From: Desulfurococcales archaeon | GTDB taxonomy: Archaea > Thermoproteota > Thermoprotei_A > Sulfolobales > Acidilobaceae | DNA length: 64,000 nt | Reading direction: 5' to 3' | NCBI GenBank assembly: GCA_015521705.1 | Contig: WANR01000038.1 | Coordinates: 1 to 64,000, forward strand | In this document: piece by piece, positions 45 to 13,581 of the stretch | Layout: the number at the start of each line of letters is the position of its first letter | Numbering within the stretch: position 1 is the first letter of the stretch | The notes under the pieces: model-generated | The model's database searches: none | Told to the model about the DNA's origin: nothing | The model's input: the letters and a program-made list of their open reading frames with translations, nothing else | Translations under genes and position numbers: made by a program

Positions 45-842
45 GTGGGGGGCGGGGGGTTTTGTTTGGTTGCTGAGCATTGTTTAAGACGGTTAAGGCT
101 ATGTCTATCAGGTGCCTGCTTGTTGTTAGCTATTCTGAGCGTTGCGGGGCTGGGTCTCGCCGCTCATTCTGTCGAGTACAAGCAATTCGTACTGAACACT
201 GTTTCCAGAGACATGGGCCTGGCTGGCAGCCTTAGCTTTACAGTACTCAACGGCGGTTCCATCGAGTATAGCGGCGGCTCTGTCAGCGTGGCTCCCGGCG
301 ATTTCATAGAGATAGTCATTAGCGATACAGACCTGGAAGCCAGGCTATGGATAGGCGTGGATGGGTGGATCGACATTGAAGACTTAGACGTCGTAGAGGT
401 TAGGGTTAACGGGATCACTGTAGTAGCTGGCGACGAGATAGAGGCTGACAGTATACGGGTTGACGTGGACGGAATGACGAGCAGCTTGGAGGTCTTCGTG
501 ACTAGTAGTACAAACGGGTGGACGCTATTCACGTTCAATGGCACCAGTCTGATCAATGGCAACGATAACAGTGACATACTTCTGTCAGGCGCCAGGCCCG
601 GCCCAGGCTCTGCCTTAAACATTAACATAGAGCCTTCTTCCCAGTACGCCTCGGGAACGGCTTCAACAGCGTACGTAAACGGTACCGAGGTCCCAGAATT
701 CTCGCCTATAGGGCTAGTAGCTTTAGCACTGGCTGGGCTCCTTATCCTAGTAAAGGGGCTCCGGGCTGGCTATGGCCGTTCGGCAGGGCTTGGGGCTCAG
801 AGCCTGCGCGTGAGGCTTAGGGGGCTGGCAGGAGTGGGATGA
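45..842 (+). CDS. Secreted protein with PEF-type C-terminal sorting signal (archaeosortase substrate)
   Basis: 265 aa, no recognised catalytic domain. The N-terminus holds a basic segment (LRRLRLCL) and a hydrophobic core ending in GLGLAAHS, a signal peptide. The middle is beta-rich and acidic with several N-x-S/T sites, as expected of a glycosylated surface protein. Near the C-terminus VPEFSP is followed by a hydrophobic helix and then K-G-L-R-A-G. This PEF / helix / basic layout is that of PEF-CTERM signals cut by archaeosortases. Unusually, about 25 more residues follow the basic cluster. The GTG at 45 opens the frame, but TTG at 66 preceded by a G-rich Shine-Dalgarno tract gives a more compact signal peptide. 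The stop overlaps the next gene's ATG (ATGA). The archaeosortase encoded at 3320-3889 is the likely processing enzyme. Sorting role is inferred from motif and context. Confidence 0.7.
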   Translation: MGGGGFCLVAEHCLRRLRLCLSGACLLLAILSVAGLGLAAHSVEYKQFVLNTVSRDMGLAGSLSFTVLNGGSIEYSGGSVSVAPGDFIEIVISDTDLEARLWIGVDGWIDIEDLDVVEVRVNGITVVAGDEIEADSIRVDVDGMTSSLEVFVTSSTNGWTLFTFNGTSLINGNDNSDILLSGARPGPGSALNINIEPSSQYASGTASTAYVNGTEVPEFSPIGLVALALAGLLILVKGLRAGYGRSAGLGAQSLRVRLRGLAGVG

Positions 843-2026
843 TGCGCGCCGTGCCAGCTCTACTGATCCTAGCTCTACTACTGCCCGTAGTCAGCTCCCT
901 GGATCTGCCACTGGCCACCGGCGGGGTTGAGGGACAGCTGCTATACGTAGCCACGGATAGCTATGATGAAATGTTTGTAAGGGACCTAGTGGAGAAGTAC
1001 CCTAGCCTGGCAGGGCCCGTTATAGGGATCGACGGGCTTATAAGCCTTAGCAACGGGCTCGAGGGTACGATAGTGGTTCTCCTAGACCCCAACTGGGACG
1101 ACGCGCTCCAGGTGCTGGAGGTACTGGAGATCCTCAGAGAGCATCTATACAATGGTGGACTGATCGTGTCGACCCTGAACGGCGCAGTCCTCCTATCCAG
1201 ACTACTCGAGGATCACGGCGTGGCTCTGAGGGTATCCGAGTCCAGCGAAGGATTCGAGGCAGCGTTGCCAGGGTACGAGTATGAGAAATACAAGGTCGCG
1301 GTCTTAGAAGGCGCCGGGGTAGGGATCGTAGAGTTGCAAGGACAAGCGCCCCTGTATAGGGTAACTATCGGCAACGGCTTTGTGGTAATACTGCCCTTCA
1401 ACGTGGTGTGGGCCTACGGCGACCTAGGCCACGAGGCTTACCTCAAGCTCTTCTCGGCTATTCTGGACTACGCTGGGTCGCTTGAACCGTCGAGTCCCGC
1501 GGAGGTAGCTCCGCTAGCCTCAGCCCTGGCGGTTTCTGCCACGGTCGCCGCAGGTTATATCGCTCTAACTCTGAGCCCTGAAGAGGCTAGGAGGCCCATT
1601 ATGGTTCCTCTCAGGATAAGAACAGCTGAGAGGAACGCTCTCGGTCACCCGGTTAGGAGGAAGATCCTCAGGCTCTTGGGTGAGCGCGGCTACCTGTACT
1701 TCAACGAGCTTTGGAGAGAGCTTGGCACGTCCAAGGCAACCCTCTCATGGCACCTAGATGTCCTGTACAGGGCCGGCCTGATCGGGTACCTGAAGTACAA
1801 GAAGTACATGCTATACTATATAGCTACGCCGGCGGCCCTCAGAGCCCTAGCGGAGGATCTGGCCCTGAGGGATCCCGACGTTTGCAGGATCCTCCAGCTA
1901 CTGGAGAAAGGCCTAGACGCCTCCAGCATAAGCGGGGAACTAGGCCTCAGCGTCGAGACTGTTAGTAGCATAGCGGCGCTCCTGTCGAGTTACAAGCCCG
2001 GGCTATGCGCCAGCCCGGAGAGGTAG
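839..2026 (+). CDS. Membrane-anchored winged-helix regulator with extracytoplasmic sensor domain
   Basis: 395 aa. Residues 1-20 form a signal peptide or first membrane helix. About 25-215 is an extracytoplasmic alpha/beta domain that loosely resembles DUF4350/GATase-like folds (weak). About 224-246 is a transmembrane helix. Residues 264-330 form an ArsR-like winged helix (LGHPVRRKILRLL, TSKATLSWHLDVLYRAGLI), and about 345-386 looks like a second helix-turn-helix. The DNA-binding part is therefore cytoplasmic and the sensor outside, a one-component transmembrane regulator. It overlaps the upstream sorting substrate by 4 bases and belongs to the same operon. It probably senses the state of the cell surface or the processed protein and controls this locus; that is inference. 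The wHTH call is strong, the sensor fold is not. Confidence 0.75.
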   Translation: MMRAVPALLILALLLPVVSSLDLPLATGGVEGQLLYVATDSYDEMFVRDLVEKYPSLAGPVIGIDGLISLSNGLEGTIVVLLDPNWDDALQVLEVLEILREHLYNGGLIVSTLNGAVLLSRLLEDHGVALRVSESSEGFEAALPGYEYEKYKVAVLEGAGVGIVELQGQAPLYRVTIGNGFVVILPFNVVWAYGDLGHEAYLKLFSAILDYAGSLEPSSPAEVAPLASALAVSATVAAGYIALTLSPEEARRPIMVPLRIRTAERNALGHPVRRKILRLLGERGYLYFNELWRELGTSKATLSWHLDVLYRAGLIGYLKYKKYMLYYIATPAALRALAEDLALRDPDVCRILQLLEKGLDASSISGELGLSVETVSSIAALLSSYKPGLCASPER

Positions 2027-2031
2027 TAGCG

Positions 2032-3342
2032 TTGCAGGTAGACTACGTGTCACTAGAGCTCGAGAGCTGGGGCAGATTCCTCGGGTCAGCGCTCGTGCTT
2101 GCCGGCATAGCACTTCACGTGTTTGCATCGCTCATTCTAACAATGTATGGCGCATGGTACGTGTCAGGGTTCATAACGTTTCTCAGAACAAGGAGCCTCC
2201 AGCCCCAGCCCAGCGGGCGGCTAGAGAGGCTACCCCCAGTTGTTATCCTGGTGCCAGTCTACAACGACTACGAGCTCCTGTCGAGCCTCAGGACTCTCCT
2301 AGCCCAGGACTACCCAAACTACAGGGTGATCGTCGTAGACGACTCAGATGACGAAGAGTTCTCGAGAGAGATAAAAATGATGGAGCAACTCAACAGAGAC
2401 AGGCTGATCCACCTGAAACGGGGCGGGCGCGAGGGGCTGAAAGCCGGCGCCTTGAACCATGCCATAGACTTTATAGAGTCCAACGGCCTGGACGTGAAAT
2501 ACGTGCTGATACTGGACGCGGACTTCGATCTTGAAAGGGGCATGCTTAGGAGGTATGTAGAGATAGCGGAGCAGTACGGCGCCGACATTGTCCAGGGCCT
2601 GCAGAGGCACTCGAAGGGCTCCCACACCTTGTTTGGCACAGTCTACAGGGCTGCAGCATCAGGGTCCATAGTGAACCTGGCCGGCAGGGCCTTCATGAAC
2701 ATGATGCCCATATTCACCGGGTCCTGCGCCCTCATAAGATACGAGTTACTGCGTGAGGTTAGGTTCAGGGAGAACAGTATAGCGGAGGACTGGAGGTGGA
2801 CCATAGACGCTTACCTGGCCAAGGAGACTCTCGTCATCATAGCGACGGACAGGGTCTACGGCTCCGGGAGCGTTCCTAAGACGCAGAAAGCCTTCATTAG
2901 GCAGCAAGTGAGATGGTCCACGGGGACCCTGCTCGAGTTTAAGGAGACCCTCGTGGACTTCCTCTTCGACACGAGATTCCCGGCCAGCACTAAGCTGGGC
3001 TATGCTATGCAAGGACTACTCTTCACCCAGGGCATTTGGATCTACTACGAGACCATAGCACCCTTCCTGCTAAAGTACCTGGCAGGTGTTGATGTTGAGT
3101 GGATCTGGCCGATAGGCCTATACGTATGGCTTATATGTTTCGAGACGCTCGTACTCTCGGGAGCCCTTCTAGAGTCTTATGACGCCAGCAAGCTCACGGT
3201 GCTAGCCGTGCTGACCATCCCAATGATATACTATACCGCCCTTATACACTCCTATGGCACCCTAAAAGCACTCATAGGCAGAGGGGTCAGGTGGAGGGTC
3301 ACCAGTAAGAGGGGATCCTATGAGAAGAGGTACAGGGAGTAG
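2032..3342 (+). CDS. Family 2 membrane glycosyltransferase (cellulose synthase-like)
   Basis: Transfers a sugar from a nucleotide or lipid donor at the inner membrane face. Motifs, numbered from the upstream ATG at 2005: VPVYND near 84, VVDDSDD near 110, the metal-binding DADFD at 171-175, FTGSCALIR near 237, catalytic ED at 261-262 and QQVRW at 300-304. That is the complete processive GT2 set. One membrane helix precedes the catalytic domain and about three follow it. The ATG at 2005 would overlap the upstream gene by 22 bases; the TTG at 2032 has ggagagg eight bases ahead and is preferred. The archaeosortase gene begins inside its 3' end. Context suggests it makes a glycan for the sorted surface protein. 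The sugar is unknown. Confidence 0.85.
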   Translation: MQVDYVSLELESWGRFLGSALVLAGIALHVFASLILTMYGAWYVSGFITFLRTRSLQPQPSGRLERLPPVVILVPVYNDYELLSSLRTLLAQDYPNYRVIVVDDSDDEEFSREIKMMEQLNRDRLIHLKRGGREGLKAGALNHAIDFIESNGLDVKYVLILDADFDLERGMLRRYVEIAEQYGADIVQGLQRHSKGSHTLFGTVYRAAASGSIVNLAGRAFMNMMPIFTGSCALIRYELLREVRFRENSIAEDWRWTIDAYLAKETLVIIATDRVYGSGSVPKTQKAFIRQQVRWSTGTLLEFKETLVDFLFDTRFPASTKLGYAMQGLLFTQGIWIYYETIAPFLLKYLAGVDVEWIWPIGLYVWLICFETLVLSGALLESYDASKLTVLAVLTIPMIYYTALIHSYGTLKALIGRGVRWRVTSKRGSYEKRYRE

Positions 3343-3889
3343 GGGGTACGGGCGCCTGGGCATACAGGGAGTCACTGGATCCAGCTACAGCTACACCAGC
3401 GTCCTATCCTTCATAGGCCTGGCCACCCTGGTCGTATCGGCCGTGTTCCTCCTCGAGGCCGTACTGGTAGAGGTGCTTGTCAGTGTTCTAAGAGCACTCT
3501 TCGAGGCCACGGGCTATGGCGCTATAGAGTCTTCGTGGAACTCCATAATAGTCTACAAGCCCGAGCTAAACGTTATAACACTGATCATAACCAAGCAGTG
3601 CCTGGGAGTCTACGCCCCGATAGCGTACAGCCTTTTCGTGCTTCTAACACCCCTGTCGACGAGGAGGGAGAAGGCCGTAGAGATCCTTAAGGGATCCCTT
3701 GTGCTCTACTCCTTCAACATTGCCAGGATATACACTGCCGGCCTGGTAGGCGTCAACATGGGGTACAAGATGCTCAGGTTCTACCACGACATAATTGGCG
3801 CCATCATAACCATCCTCCTAGTAGTTGTCATGTGGGTCCTGTGGCTCCGCAGGATCGGTTATAGGGTAAACAGTGATGCCTCTCCGTAG
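3320..3889 (+). CDS. Archaeosortase/exosortase-family transpeptidase
   Basis: 189 aa integral membrane protein with about five hydrophobic segments. It carries the three invariant catalytic positions of the exosortase/archaeosortase fold: Cys94 in TKQCLG, Arg136 in NIAR, and His156 in FYHDIIG. The spacings (42 and 20 residues) match the family. These enzymes cut C-terminal sorting signals on the outer membrane face and join the new end to a lipid or other acceptor. The gene overlaps the GT2 gene by 23 bases and the next gene by about 14, so it is translationally coupled. The PEF-type protein at 45-842 is its obvious substrate. It is shorter than many archaeosortases because it lacks extra N-terminal helices. 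Family call is confident; the subfamily is not determined. Confidence 0.82.
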   Translation: MRRGTGSRGYGRLGIQGVTGSSYSYTSVLSFIGLATLVVSAVFLLEAVLVEVLVSVLRALFEATGYGAIESSWNSIIVYKPELNVITLIITKQCLGVYAPIAYSLFVLLTPLSTRREKAVEILKGSLVLYSFNIARIYTAGLVGVNMGYKMLRFYHDIIGAIITILLVVVMWVLWLRRIGYRVNSDASP

Positions 3890-5588
3890 CATTGTCTCCC
3901 GGCTAGCAGTTAAAGGGACTCCAGAGCCCCTTACGAGGGTCCTGACCGATGTTGCCCTTGTAGCGTACACCACTCTAGTAGTGTACCCCCTCATAGCGAC
4001 CATCGGGCTTCCCAGCTACGAGAAGGGAGTCTTCCACACTGCTACCATAGGCTACTATATGTCCACTGTGAGGCTGATCCAGGAGGACGGCCTCATAACC
4101 GGTGCCTGGTGCGGCTTCTCGGACCTGCTGAGGTTCTACCCCCCACTCTCCCTGGTAGGTATGTATGCAGTATCCCTAACCGTCGGCAACCTGCTGCAGG
4201 GGGCAATGATCTCGTTCTACTTCGCCATAGTATTCCTCGTTCTATCCTTTCACAGATTCGCCTTGGCTGTAACAGGCTCTAGGACTGTAGCCTTCTTAGC
4301 CGCCCTCCTTCTCCCCGTCCTACCCAGGTATGTGGAAGTGACGGCTATCTACTGGGAGTACACTAGGATAGCGGGCGAGGCCGTGTCTTACTACGCCTTG
4401 TACCGCCTAGTCCTAGCGCTCAGGATGGGAAGCGCCAGGGATTTCGCCCTAGCAGGGGCTCTCTACGGGCTGGTGCTACTCACTAGTCTCATAGCGTTCA
4501 TAGAAGCCACCCTGCTAGCTATAGCTACGGTGGCCTACAGCCTCCGCGCCAGGTATAAGGAGGGATCGCCTCCGGGGGTCTTTGCTTACCTAGGATCAGC
4601 CCTCTCACTCTATGCCCTATCCTTCGCAGCTGTAGCGGCGTGGTGGCTGGTTCCAGCAGTGGCCCCCTTTGGTGTCAGCGGGTATCTAAGGGTTGAGACG
4701 CCTCTAGAAGACAGGCTCCTAGCCCTTGCAGGCCTCTTCCTAGAGCCCGGTGACGCCTTATACGCTGTGGGAGGCTCATTGTCCCTTATAGCTATAACGA
4801 TTAGACCCGGAGCTGGCAGGTTGCTTGTCATTTATGCTCTCCTACTAGTATCCTTGGTAGTGCTCACGAGTAGGGGTGCAAGATTCCTCCCAACACTAGA
4901 AGCAATGCTAGCCCTTTCAATGCTCTATGCAGTACTAGCCCTCCACCCAGGTGCCAGGTACGGGCGCTACAGGCTCTTAGCACGGCCTCTGCTAGCTGCG
5001 GGGATTGCGGTAGCTTACGCCTTGACCGCCTGGAACGGCATAGCCGTATACCGTGACATGCTGGCGCTGGACTACACCTTTCAGTCGAGTGACGAGTACA
5101 AGCTCTCTGTAATGCTCGCCGGGCTAGGCGGGGACTACAGGGCCTACATAATGTACGGGCCCAGGCTTCACGGTAACCAGTGGGTCAACCTCTTCAACCC
5201 CAGCATAAAGCAGGTGCTCAGCGGCTTCATGGAAGGCTGCATGCTAGGGGACTACCAGAAGCTAGACAGCCTTGTGAAGAACACGCTTGACACGGCGAGG
5301 GTTAAATTACTCCTGGACAGGACATGCACGGCCGTGATGGTTGTAGACAGAGAGTTCTACGAGTCCAAGAGAAACGTCGTGAGACTGCTGGTAGAGGAGG
5401 GCTATCTGGTCGAGGACAAAGCCATGAACCAGTACCTCGACTACTCGCTGGTTTTCTGGAGAGCCGAGCTACCAGACTGCGTGGTAGGGGGTCCTCCGGG
5501 ATACCTAACCCCTGCCAAGCTCCTGGGCCTAGCTATAAGCGCTGTGGCCGCTATAATGGCGCTCTCGAAGCTTAGACGGCTAGATTAG
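3876..5588 (+). CDS. Polytopic GT-C-like membrane protein
   Basis: About 570 aa with roughly 11 membrane helices and a soluble C-terminal part (about residues 400-540) before a final helix. The first large outside loop contains EKGVFHTATIGYYMSTVRL and, further on, RFYPPLS. This acidic-loop plus YPPL pattern is seen in GT-C transferases and in the membrane family annotated as PTPS-related. Such proteins move a sugar from a polyprenyl-phosphate carrier onto an acceptor outside the membrane. GTG at 3873 and ATG at 3876 are adjacent possible starts; both overlap the archaeosortase end. As the last gene of the overlapping cluster it probably acts on the same surface protein or glycan. Acceptor and donor are unknown, and a non-enzymatic role is possible. 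Confidence 0.6.
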   Translation: MPLRSIVSRLAVKGTPEPLTRVLTDVALVAYTTLVVYPLIATIGLPSYEKGVFHTATIGYYMSTVRLIQEDGLITGAWCGFSDLLRFYPPLSLVGMYAVSLTVGNLLQGAMISFYFAIVFLVLSFHRFALAVTGSRTVAFLAALLLPVLPRYVEVTAIYWEYTRIAGEAVSYYALYRLVLALRMGSARDFALAGALYGLVLLTSLIAFIEATLLAIATVAYSLRARYKEGSPPGVFAYLGSALSLYALSFAAVAAWWLVPAVAPFGVSGYLRVETPLEDRLLALAGLFLEPGDALYAVGGSLSLIAITIRPGAGRLLVIYALLLVSLVVLTSRGARFLPTLEAMLALSMLYAVLALHPGARYGRYRLLARPLLAAGIAVAYALTAWNGIAVYRDMLALDYTFQSSDEYKLSVMLAGLGGDYRAYIMYGPRLHGNQWVNLFNPSIKQVLSGFMEGCMLGDYQKLDSLVKNTLDTARVKLLLDRTCTAVMVVDREFYESKRNVVRLLVEEGYLVEDKAMNQYLDYSLVFWRAELPDCVVGGPPGYLTPAKLLGLAISAVAAIMALSKLRRLD

Positions 5589-5662
5589 GCTGGGTTAGAT
5601 GCGTCGAGCCGTTTGCCCCACCCTATTGGAAGCCTTAATTAGGATCCAGGCTAGAAGCATTA

Positions 5663-6535
5663 GTGGTGCCTGTTTTGACGCTCTTAGATAGGTGGCTTGA
5701 ACCATTCATGAATACGCTGCGCGTGTATGGGCCCCACACTATTAAAGTGCTACTATCTTACCTAGCCTACAGGCTTGGCAGGCAGTGGGCCCCCAGGGTG
5801 AGCATTAAAGGTTTCAGCGTCAGGGAGCCCTGGCCCGTGCTGAGGTATATTAGGGAACTCTACCTTAGAGGCCACAGGCTTCTGGGTAGAGAGGGCGACG
5901 CATACATCGTGGGCTTCTATGGCTATAAGGTCCTAGTGCCTAGGGGGGAGGACTTGGGCGTCTTCATAGAGGACTTCGACGAGATATACGGCCTGGGCGA
6001 GGGCTACAAGGGTAAGAGAGTCCTCGACATCGGCGGATTCCTAGGCGAAACCGCCATGTACTTCCTCTACAGGGGAGCCTCTGCCGTGACAGTGTACGAG
6101 CCCCACCCCCTATTCTATGAAACATTGCTCCAGAACATCGAGTTAAACGGTTTAACAGACAGGATTAGGGCCAAGAGAAAAGCCATATGCTTAGGCGAGG
6201 ACCGCTCAAGCCTGAAAGGGGAAAGCGTGGCTTTCGGCCTACTGGGCAATGGACAAGAAGTCGAGGCCTTTGAGGTGGAATGCGAGCATGCCGGCAAAGC
6301 TCTTTCAGAGAATAGTGCCGATATTGCAAAGTTCAACTGCGAGGGCTGCGAGTACTACCTAATAGGGCTTGACTGTGAAACGCTGAGAAGTATTAGGCAC
6401 TACATAATAGAGATCCACGGCTCACCGCAGCCCCTGATAAATAGGCTGGCACAATGCGGCTTTACTGCTAGGTTCAGGAAAGAGGTGGATCGCTTAATAA
6501 GCGTCTACGAGTTCTCGACCCAGGGAAATGCGTGA
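5663..6535 (+). CDS. FkbM-family SAM-dependent methyltransferase
   Basis: 290 aa. The SAM-binding motif LDIGGFLGE lies at 121-129 and the acidic end of strand 2 (VYEPHP) at about 144-149, followed by NIELNGL, a typical FkbM/class I arrangement. The N-terminal 100 residues are an extra domain common in glycan-linked FkbM proteins. FkbM enzymes O-methylate sugars and polyketides. Here the gene lies 74 bases after the GT-C-like gene, so it may methylate a sugar of the same surface glycan (inference). GTG at 5663 gives the start; no strong Shine-Dalgarno is seen, so a start slightly downstream cannot be excluded. Its last third (EFNCEGCEYYLIGLDCE region) keeps the usual FkbM E-G-x-E-like pattern. 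Confidence 0.75.
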   Translation: MVPVLTLLDRWLEPFMNTLRVYGPHTIKVLLSYLAYRLGRQWAPRVSIKGFSVREPWPVLRYIRELYLRGHRLLGREGDAYIVGFYGYKVLVPRGEDLGVFIEDFDEIYGLGEGYKGKRVLDIGGFLGETAMYFLYRGASAVTVYEPHPLFYETLLQNIELNGLTDRIRAKRKAICLGEDRSSLKGESVAFGLLGNGQEVEAFEVECEHAGKALSENSADIAKFNCEGCEYYLIGLDCETLRSIRHYIIEIHGSPQPLINRLAQCGFTARFRKEVDRLISVYEFSTQGNA

Positions 6536-12495: not shown

Positions 12496-13581
12496 GTGCC
12501 AGTCGACATAAACACTGTCATGAACTCCTTCATATACGCTGGGATCCTGTCTCTGCTAAGCCTCGGCATAACGCTCGCATACATGACGACTGGCGTCTTC
12601 AACTTTGCCCACCCTAGACTAGCGATAATAGGCTCTTATGCCGCGGCGACAGTCGTGGCAGCGTCAATGGCTTACCTAGGCATGAAGCCCAACCTGGAAA
12701 CCTTTGAGACCGCTATTGGAGTGGTCAGGCAACCCCTGCCCCTGTCAGTATACGCTCTCGGACTCCTAGCCTCCGTGGCAGCGGCGACCGCCGCAGCCCT
12801 TGTCGAGTACTACGCCATCCTGAGGCCCCTCCAGAGGAGGGGAGCCGACTTCCTCAAACTGATGATAGCCACTCTAGCCTACGACTTTATACTAGTAGCT
12901 GGGCTATTCCTGTACAGCACGCTGCCCTACCTAGACTCTAAAGCCTCGGAAGCCAACATAGGGATCTCGAGCACCAGCATGACTATGACGTCCTATGACG
13001 TGTGGATCTGGAGCGGCGACGTGGTTATAAGGGGCATGTTCATCATGGGAGTCTCCGCAACGATCGCCGTCTCAGTCATACTCTTCCTGCTCCTCTTCAA
13101 GACAAAGCTTGGGATAAAAATGAGGGCCTCCGTGGAGAACCCAGACCTGGCTAGAGTGCTTGGCATCAACGTTGACAGGGTTTACGCTATAGCCTGGGCC
13201 ATAAGCGGCGCCACGGCCGGCGTTGCTGGGTTCATAATACTCTTCGGAACCCACGTATTGAAGCCAATATCAGCTACTTCGCCAGCGGACGAGATAGTTG
13301 TTAGCGCCTTTGCCGGGAGCATTGTCGGGGGGATCAACAGCGTGTTCGGCAGCATAGGTGGAGGGTTCCTGATAGGCCTGGTAGAGAAGCTGTTTACAAA
13401 CATCCTTGTCGGCGTGACTGGCTATGGGAACCTCTTGAAGTTTGGCAAGGTCTTCTCCATGGCGGCCGTGGTCATAGTGCTCCTATTCATGCCTGAAGGC
13501 CTGGCCTCTGTCAGGTGGAAGCGGGCCCTGGGCAGGCTCCTGAGGCTTAGGTTCATTAGTAGGGGTGTGAGGAGTGGTTGA
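12496..13581 (+). CDS. livH: Liv-type ABC transporter permease, LivH class
   Basis: 361 aa, about eight or nine membrane helices. The family signature is seen in GVFNFAHPRLAIIG near the N-terminus and in VLGINVDRVYAIAWAISGATAGVAG in the ATPase-contact (EAA-like) loop, followed by the G-S-I-V-G-G-I-N-S loop. It is somewhat longer than bacterial LivH because of an enlarged outside loop around residues 55-75. It pairs with the LivM protein encoded next, whose start overlaps its end by 8 bases. Confidence 0.88.
   Translation: MPVDINTVMNSFIYAGILSLLSLGITLAYMTTGVFNFAHPRLAIIGSYAAATVVAASMAYLGMKPNLETFETAIGVVRQPLPLSVYALGLLASVAAATAAALVEYYAILRPLQRRGADFLKLMIATLAYDFILVAGLFLYSTLPYLDSKASEANIGISSTSMTMTSYDVWIWSGDVVIRGMFIMGVSATIAVSVILFLLLFKTKLGIKMRASVENPDLARVLGINVDRVYAIAWAISGATAGVAGFIILFGTHVLKPISATSPADEIVVSAFAGSIVGGINSVFGSIGGGFLIGLVEKLFTNILVGVTGYGNLLKFGKVFSMAAVVIVLLFMPEGLASVRWKRALGRLLRLRFISRGVRSG

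Follow-up and report, generated by a model that had tools for sequence, protein, structure and literature searches.

The XrtG system of Lactiplantibacillus plantarum is reported to combine one CTERM substrate, the enzyme XrtG and two glycosyltransferases (PMC12854382). In archaea, ArtA of Haloferax volcanii carries Cys, Arg and His residues and acts on PGF-CTERM proteins with a tripartite C-terminal signal (PMC7157517). We analyzed the first 64,000 nucleotides (the window) of a 110,055-bp contig from a Desulfurococcales archaeon. A five-gene locus at its start shares the ArtA superfamily, the three residues and the tripartite signal; whereas ArtA uses PGF, many substrates and lipid-synthase neighbors, this locus uses VP(E), one substrate and glycosyltransferases. 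In composition it resembles the XrtG/Firmicu-CTERM clusters, each of which likewise pairs a sortase and its dedicated substrate with two glycosyltransferases (PMC12854382), and the archaeal arrangement parallels this Gram-positive system, with a membrane regulator as an extra. The best reading of the locus is an undescribed archaeosortase subfamily that would couple a single surface protein to a glycan or glycolipid produced by the neighboring enzymes.

The five overlapping genes and the crenarchaeal host named in an earlier, sequence-only reading were both confirmed. All five open reading frames lie on the + strand: the secreted substrate SUB (45..842), the membrane regulator REG (839..2026), the glycosyltransferase GT2 (2005..3342), the sortase-like enzyme ART (3320..3889) and the polytopic membrane protein GTC (3873..5588), with successive overlaps of 4, 22, 23 and 17 bp. 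The GTG start at position 45 is directly preceded by an in-frame TAG, so the SUB gene is complete despite the window starting at the contig end.

ART (189 aa) is a genuine member of the exosortase/archaeosortase superfamily. The signature model TIGR04178, with a curated cut-off of 23 bits, matched it at 41.7 bits as a protein and at 43.8 bits in the genome search, and also matched 7/7 ART orthologues; the HMM comparison of the 3320..3889 protein with archaeosortase/exosortase profiles, proposed earlier as a check, thus returned a significant match. The codons of Cys94 (3599..3601, the predicted nucleophile), Arg136 (3725..3727) and His156 (3785..3787) specify residues invariant in 16 sequences with ~17–33% identity to the window ART. 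Since these are three of only four invariant residues, their presence is not due to chance, and the archaeosortase-type enzyme originally proposed from them is upheld. The three residues lie on successive membrane helices, and the positive charge of the TM3–TM4 loop (mean K+R 2.5 vs. D+E 0.6) supports their location on the outer face. ART passed no named subfamily cut-off and gave neither a Pfam match nor a match by sequence to solved structures. Above-cut-off superfamily matches were present in 38/214 genomes of the order, most of them of a different, ~550-aa type; the rarity of the superfamily in this branch, implied by the sequence-only reading, did not hold.

Among the subfamily models, ArtF (TIGR04293) and XrtG (TIGR03110) each matched 7/7 ART orthologues, with best E values of 2.8e-14 and 6e-12, respectively; the window ART scored 30.2 bits against a cut-off of 150 for ArtF and 35.2 bits against 102.75 for XrtG. 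The XrtG-associated glycosyltransferase model TIGR03111 matched GT2 at 37 bits (cut-off 363.95), none of the six GTC members examined had an NCBIfam transferase match as expected of the second XrtG-associated glycosyltransferase, and the substrate tail and GTC do not match the bacterial families. A plasmid search gave no match with ART, and the Lactobacillaceae matches of GT2 fell in unrelated clusters. The ArtA model weakly matched only 1/7 orthologues. ArtB (TIGR04144) matched 4/7 (best E 5.4e-11), and its VPXXXP-CTERM motif also starts with VP; because the window ART was unmatched at E 0.1 and only three SUB-type tails fit VPxxxP while several do not, membership in this family was rejected. 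None of the substrates was reached by the VPXXXP-CTERM models.

SUB (265 aa) consists of an N-terminal signal helix, a beta-rich domain and a C-terminal sorting tail. A hydrophobic stretch at residues 19–37 lies in a signal-peptide-like helix that the AlphaFold model (pLDDT 81.7) extends over aa 7–39 (63..161, +); the beta domain (aa 46–211; 180..677, +; pLDDT about 90–95) has homologues elsewhere that are fused to GH5/GH12 cellulases. A PDB search with the SUB fold gave no reliable match; the top hit had an E value of 0.024, a probability of 0.08 and a TM of 0.11. The tripartite sorting signal (687..785, +) begins with EVPE (687–698) in the context EVPEFSP and continues with a hydrophobic helix (aa 221–247; 705–785), followed by a basic tail with a net charge of +5. 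A PEF-type signal had been claimed for this tail. The PEF residues are there, but the feature conserved between SUB and its orthologues is VP(E) with the helix and basic tail, and PEF occurs in only two substrates (the window SUB and that of locus L137). ArtC (TIGR03762) weakly matched 5/7 ART orthologues and did not match the window ART at E 0.1, and the PEF-CTERM models matched none of the SUB set; since PEF is not conserved and neither model fits, a PEF-CTERM/ArtC identity was rejected.

The VP-helix-basic tail was found in 7/7 SUB-domain proteins encoded beside the ART and/or GT2 gene of the set, with the motif SYVPEAPL in the L155 substrate, and was absent, as far as the proteins were read, from ten other SUB-domain proteins, including all those from genomes without a sortase match. 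SUB orthologues adjoin the sortase and/or GT2 gene in L036, L037, L038, L137, L165 and L155. The genome was searched for further tails at 34 EVPE-coding DNA sites, a search that would miss tails without EVPE; only one of the 34, that of SUB, precedes a membrane helix. The system therefore looks like a one-enzyme-one-substrate system of the bacterial XrtG/Firmicu-CTERM kind, and the dedicated secreted substrate proposed earlier, with its signal-peptide-like N-terminus and tripartite tail, is borne out.

The assignments of the remaining three proteins also agreed with the sequence-only reading. GT2 is a membrane family-2 glycosyltransferase (PF00535, E 6.6e-20) with DAD (2515–2523), ED (2785–2790) and QQVRW (2902–2916); the D, DxD, ED and QxxRW motifs together with membrane helices form the signature of processive beta-glycan synthases. 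Its profile matches were PgaC (60 bits), CelA, NodC and the XrtG-associated family, and its PDB match was cellulose synthase (E 1.3e-14). By sequence it resembles cellulose, chitin-oligosaccharide and PNAG synthases and is predicted to be of the processive type. GTC (571 aa) had no Pfam or NCBIfam family, and its AlphaFold model (pLDDT 74.8, pTM 0.76) matched GT-C enzymes in Foldseek: yeast OST STT3 (E 1.2e-6) and also AglB, PglB, DPY19 and ArnT, with a probability of 1.00. The TM-scores of about 0.5 and the high rmsd limit the assignment to class level, namely a predicted STT3/ArnT-like GT-C fold. REG is a membrane one-component regulator (PF12840, E 1.4e-13; PF01022, E 8.6e-13) with a signal/TM segment, an extracytoplasmic domain, a TM helix (1514–1570) and a C-terminal cytoplasmic ArsR-type winged helix (1640–1783, +); the HTH was present in 7/7 REG orthologues.

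Most or all of the set was also found in at least seven related genomes from five GTDB families of the order, and the gene order differed between genomes: SUB-REG-GT2-ART-GTC at L036 and L037; SUB-GT2-ART-REG-GTC at L038 and likewise, over two contigs (L165 and L034), in genome G179; and GTC...REG-GT2-ART at L035. The set was incomplete or had members replaced at L033 and L155, and ART was not found in genome G115, where the contig breaks off directly after GT2. The GT2 gene adjoined the ART gene in 15/16 ART relatives examined. This pair is distributed more widely in the phylum than the full set and persists with GTC and SUB missing or different at L148–L152, L157, L161 and L166. A contig search with ART alone as the query found relatives encoded in none of 588 candidate stretches; repeated with a GT-C alignment, the search yielded three named relatives.

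With a probability of roughly 0.55, the locus is a dedicated sorting unit in which ART cuts SUB at VP(E) and transfers it to an acceptor most likely made by GT2 and GTC. Computation places ART in its superfamily and shows its conserved catalytic residues, the VP tail, the fold classes of GT2 and GTC and the repeated occurrence of the gene set; cleavage, transfer, acceptor and the stimulus of REG are inferred as follows. SUB would be exported via its signal peptide and retained in the membrane via its C-terminal helix; ART, with Cys94, Arg136 and His156 on the outer face, would recognize VP(E) beside that helix, cut there and transfer the new SUB C-terminus to the acceptor, most likely a glycan or a prenyl-linked glycolipid. 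GT2 may make the sugar part of the acceptor from the cytoplasmic side, and GTC may add or transfer sugar outside from a lipid-phosphate donor. An external signal received by the extracytoplasmic domain of REG would change expression via the cytoplasmic winged helix.

Several observations count against this explanation. ArtA of H. volcanii joins the processed C-termini of its substrates to lipid, with archaetidylserine-type synthases and not glycosyltransferases implicated (PMC7157517); GTC has no sequence match to XrtG-associated transferases; GT2 scores higher with PgaC than with the XrtG-associated family; and the set is incomplete or altered in the three cases given above. The ArtA precedent, together with ArtF and, in orthologues, ArtB being among the nearest archaeal models of ART, is in line with an ArtA-like enzyme that cleaves SUB at VPE and links it to a common membrane lipid, with GT2 and GTC separately glycosylating SUB or another surface protein instead of making the acceptor. 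The role of a GT-C/STT3-like protein could just be to glycosylate SUB, whose sequence offers Asn-X-Ser/Thr sites (e.g., N-G-T). However, a processive polysaccharide-synthase type of GT2 would be odd for decorating one protein, and the persistence of the ART-GT2 pair without the usual GTC and SUB ties GT2 to the sortase reaction and not to SUB. We regard this lipid attachment as a serious but somewhat unlikely alternative.

The likeness of GT2 to beta-glycan synthases, the cellulase fusions of the SUB domain and the sugar-rich mucoid coat of one host, Desulfurococcus mucosus, would also suit a locus whose main function is the regulated synthesis of an exopolysaccharide or surface glycan; ART and SUB would then help in its assembly, with SUB as a glycan-binding surface anchor that ART releases or trims without covalent transfer. 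Plain release gives no obvious reason for the tail and the Cys/Arg/His set in every member, and both match a known transpeptidase-like family; we consider this reading quite improbable. That the genes are ordinary neighbors, with ART inactive as a sortase and SUB carrying VPE by coincidence, could draw on the scores of ART below all named subfamily cut-offs and its lack of a Pfam match, but is already disfavored and highly improbable given the above-cut-off signature match in this genome, the invariant catalytic residues and the retention of the set over five families in rearranged order.

For most subfamilies of exosortase-family enzymes, we know of no established attachment partner of the substrates. 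One genome with the set is that of the cultured, slime-coated D. mucosus (1,314,639 bp; locus L037, with the SUB orthologue at 12572–13273), which has the best-known cell surface among the hosts. Its mucoid coat consists of neutral and amino sugars (PMC3111991). Among the literature searched, one paper, an S-layer review, named archaeosortase as well as Desulfurococcus, and its two passages on archaeosortase deal with Haloferax ArtA and the corresponding reference. More speculatively, and with the slime correlation coming from this one species, the locus might be a polysaccharide synthase and a sorting machine in one: GT2 and GTC would make a surface glycan to which ART covalently joins one protein, anchoring the mucoid coat in crenarchaea that form slime, D. 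mucosus among them. This is doubtful; if true, the coat would be held by a sortase-made protein-glycan bond, and ART would be, to our knowledge, the first exosortase-family enzyme with an acceptor supplied by its own operon partners. One enzyme, one substrate and two transferases in a sugar-coated, cultured hyperthermophile make the acceptor question directly testable. At L035, a 380-aa SNase-domain protein has an EVPE tail; its similarity to SUB is weak (7.8 and 4.4 bits), and it is therefore listed only as a candidate substrate.

Five closely packed genes on the forward strand open the window: those for the putative secreted substrate SUB (45-842), the regulator REG (839-2026), GT2 (2005-3342), the sortase-like enzyme ART (3320-3889) and the GT-C-fold membrane protein GTC (3873-5588). 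The five ORFs named in the sequence-only reading were genuine, with overlaps of 4, 22, 23, and 17 bp. The window starts at one end of a contig of 110,055 bp, and sequence 5' of SUB is missing from the contig; despite this, the SUB gene is complete, because an in-frame stop precedes its start codon. An FkbM-type methyltransferase gene (5663-6535; TIGR01444, 45.9 bits) lies 74 bp downstream of the cluster, and none was noted at the same place in the other loci.

The claim that the locus encodes an archaeosortase held: ART matched TIGR04178, the exosortase/archaeosortase superfamily signature, at 41.7 bits (cut-off 23) and was the sole match to this model in the source genome. ART fell far short of all named-subfamily cut-offs (XrtX, 41.8 of 170 bits; XrtG, 35.2 of 102.75; ArtF, 30.2 of 150), and its orthologues matched the TIGR04178, ArtF, and XrtG models in seven of seven cases, the ArtC model in five and the ArtB model in four. 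Judged by these sequence scores, ART is a superfamily member in an unnamed subfamily and, by those subfamilies' own cut-offs, is not XrtG, ArtA, ArtB, ArtC, or ArtF. Alignment of 16 relatives left just four invariant columns, Cys94, Arg136, Gly148, and His156. Cys94, Arg136, and His156 are predicted to be catalytic and would lie at the outer membrane face, since the loop joining the helices that bear Cys94 and Arg136 is basic (mean K+R 2.5, D+E 0.6).

In SUB, a signal helix precedes a beta domain, and the protein closes with a helix and a basic tail. PEF, proposed earlier as the substrate motif, was not borne out as a conserved one, because the SUB tails share VP instead: EVPEFSP in the window, EVPEIGL at locus L036, EVPEVTP at L037 of Desulfurococcus mucosus, EVPEFGL at L137, EVPTAAP at L138/L165, YVPEAPL at L155, and PVPILAV at L038. 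The conserved motif is thus VP(E). Proteins with the SUB domain that are encoded beside ART and/or GT2 genes of this set carried VP, then a hydrophobic helix, then a basic tail; this arrangement was absent, as far as the proteins were read, in those encoded elsewhere (L136, L139-L142, L144-L147, and one further match in genome G047), and four genomes with tail-less proteins (G124, G129, G130, and G176) had no sortase match at all. Of 34 EVPE-coding DNA sites in the source genome, only that of SUB was followed by a membrane helix, which, within a search limited to such sites, supports the prediction that one ART enzyme serves one substrate. At L035 (genome G167), a gene between GTC and REG (4460-5602) encodes a staphylococcal-nuclease-like domain protein (PF00565) whose tail is EVPE, a membrane helix, and a basic end; it may be an alternative substrate.

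GT2 contains the motifs DAD, ED, and QQVRW; models of poly-GlcNAc synthase, cellulose synthase, and NodC matched it, and in the PDB it hit cellulose synthase (E 1.3e-14). On these grounds, GT2 resembles a processive beta-glycan synthase. GTC matched no sequence family. Its predicted model (pLDDT 74.8) matched STT3, AglB, PglB, DPY19, and ArnT at probability 1.00, and because TM-scores were near 0.5 with high rmsd, the model supports assignment to the GT-C class and not a specific function. Enzymes of this class take their sugars from lipid-phosphate donors on the outside of the membrane. REG is made up of an extracytoplasmic domain, a single transmembrane helix, and, on the cytoplasmic side, a winged helix of ArsR type that all seven orthologues retain.

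Clear GTC orthologues were present in 7/214 genomes of the order, the copy in G180 being broken or partial; an eighth genome gave a short weak match, and G394, from elsewhere in the phylum, carries a more distant relative. The gene set, whole or in part, was found beyond the source genome in seven more genomes from five GTDB families (f1, f3, f7, f8, and f9). Gene order was as in the window at L036 and L037, SUB-GT2-ART-REG-GTC at L038 and in G179 (divided over contigs L165 and L034), GTC...REG-GT2-ART at L035, SUB-GT2 at a contig end in G115, and REG-ART-GT2 only at L033. Conserved membership with rearranged order argues for a cluster that would act as a functional unit. A literature search, largely without subscription papers, found no such locus described in the crenarchaeal branch.

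In the probable mechanism, ART cleaves SUB at VP(E) before handing it on to an acceptor. We favour an acceptor containing a GT2-made glycan, because ART keeps a GT2 gene beside it also in loci that lack SUB and GTC or have different ones: outside the order, ART relatives adjoin GT2 genes (L148-L152, L157, L161, and L166), and 15 of the 16 relatives examined had a GT2 neighbour. The chief alternative is that SUB is attached to a lipid in the manner of ArtA, glycosylation being a separate matter (PMC7157517). Three further points agree with the glycan acceptor, none of the supporting points being proof. Other crenarchaea have GH5 and GH12 cellulases fused to the SUB domain, a combination that suggests carbohydrate contact by this domain. 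In L. plantarum, the XrtG system comprises XrtG, a single CTERM substrate, and a pair of transferases (PMC12854382), the same composition as the ART cluster, whereas ART itself scored under XrtG's own cut-off; GTC and SUB were compared with the XrtG partners by single-sequence model scans only. D. mucosus has a mucoid coat of neutral and amino sugars, and D. mobilis is without it (PMC3111991).

The SUB beta domain was predicted confidently (pLDDT about 90-95 in most blocks), and a PDB fold search with it gave no reliable match; the all-beta model (window 45-842) may represent an undescribed fold. GH12/GH5 cellulases with this domain occur in crenarchaeal family f3 (L136:1447-3408, L145:1-3183, and L146:1438-3432), and the shared domain is possibly a new carbohydrate-associated module. 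In one lineage (L149, L150, L161, and L166), the GT2 partner of ART is a long protein, about 670-835 aa in size, that has as many as eight membrane helices. ART-GT2 pairs at L151:122-5944 and L157:11340-15556 are followed by bactofilin-like beta-helix proteins, and L151 also encodes a DUF7305 protein ending in VIPELPWPTP and a membrane helix; these loci may encode a related sorting unit that handles other substrates.

The superfamily is common in the order, with above-cut-off matches in 38/214 genomes, mostly of a separate type of ~550 aa. These ~550-aa proteins with PF09721 (Exosortase_EpsH) form a second exosortase class of the order (L044-L052). At L050:9431-19568, such a gene is clustered with MoxR AAA+ ATPase, DUF4350, weak DUF58, and DUF1616 genes; several other loci have a comparable gene arrangement.
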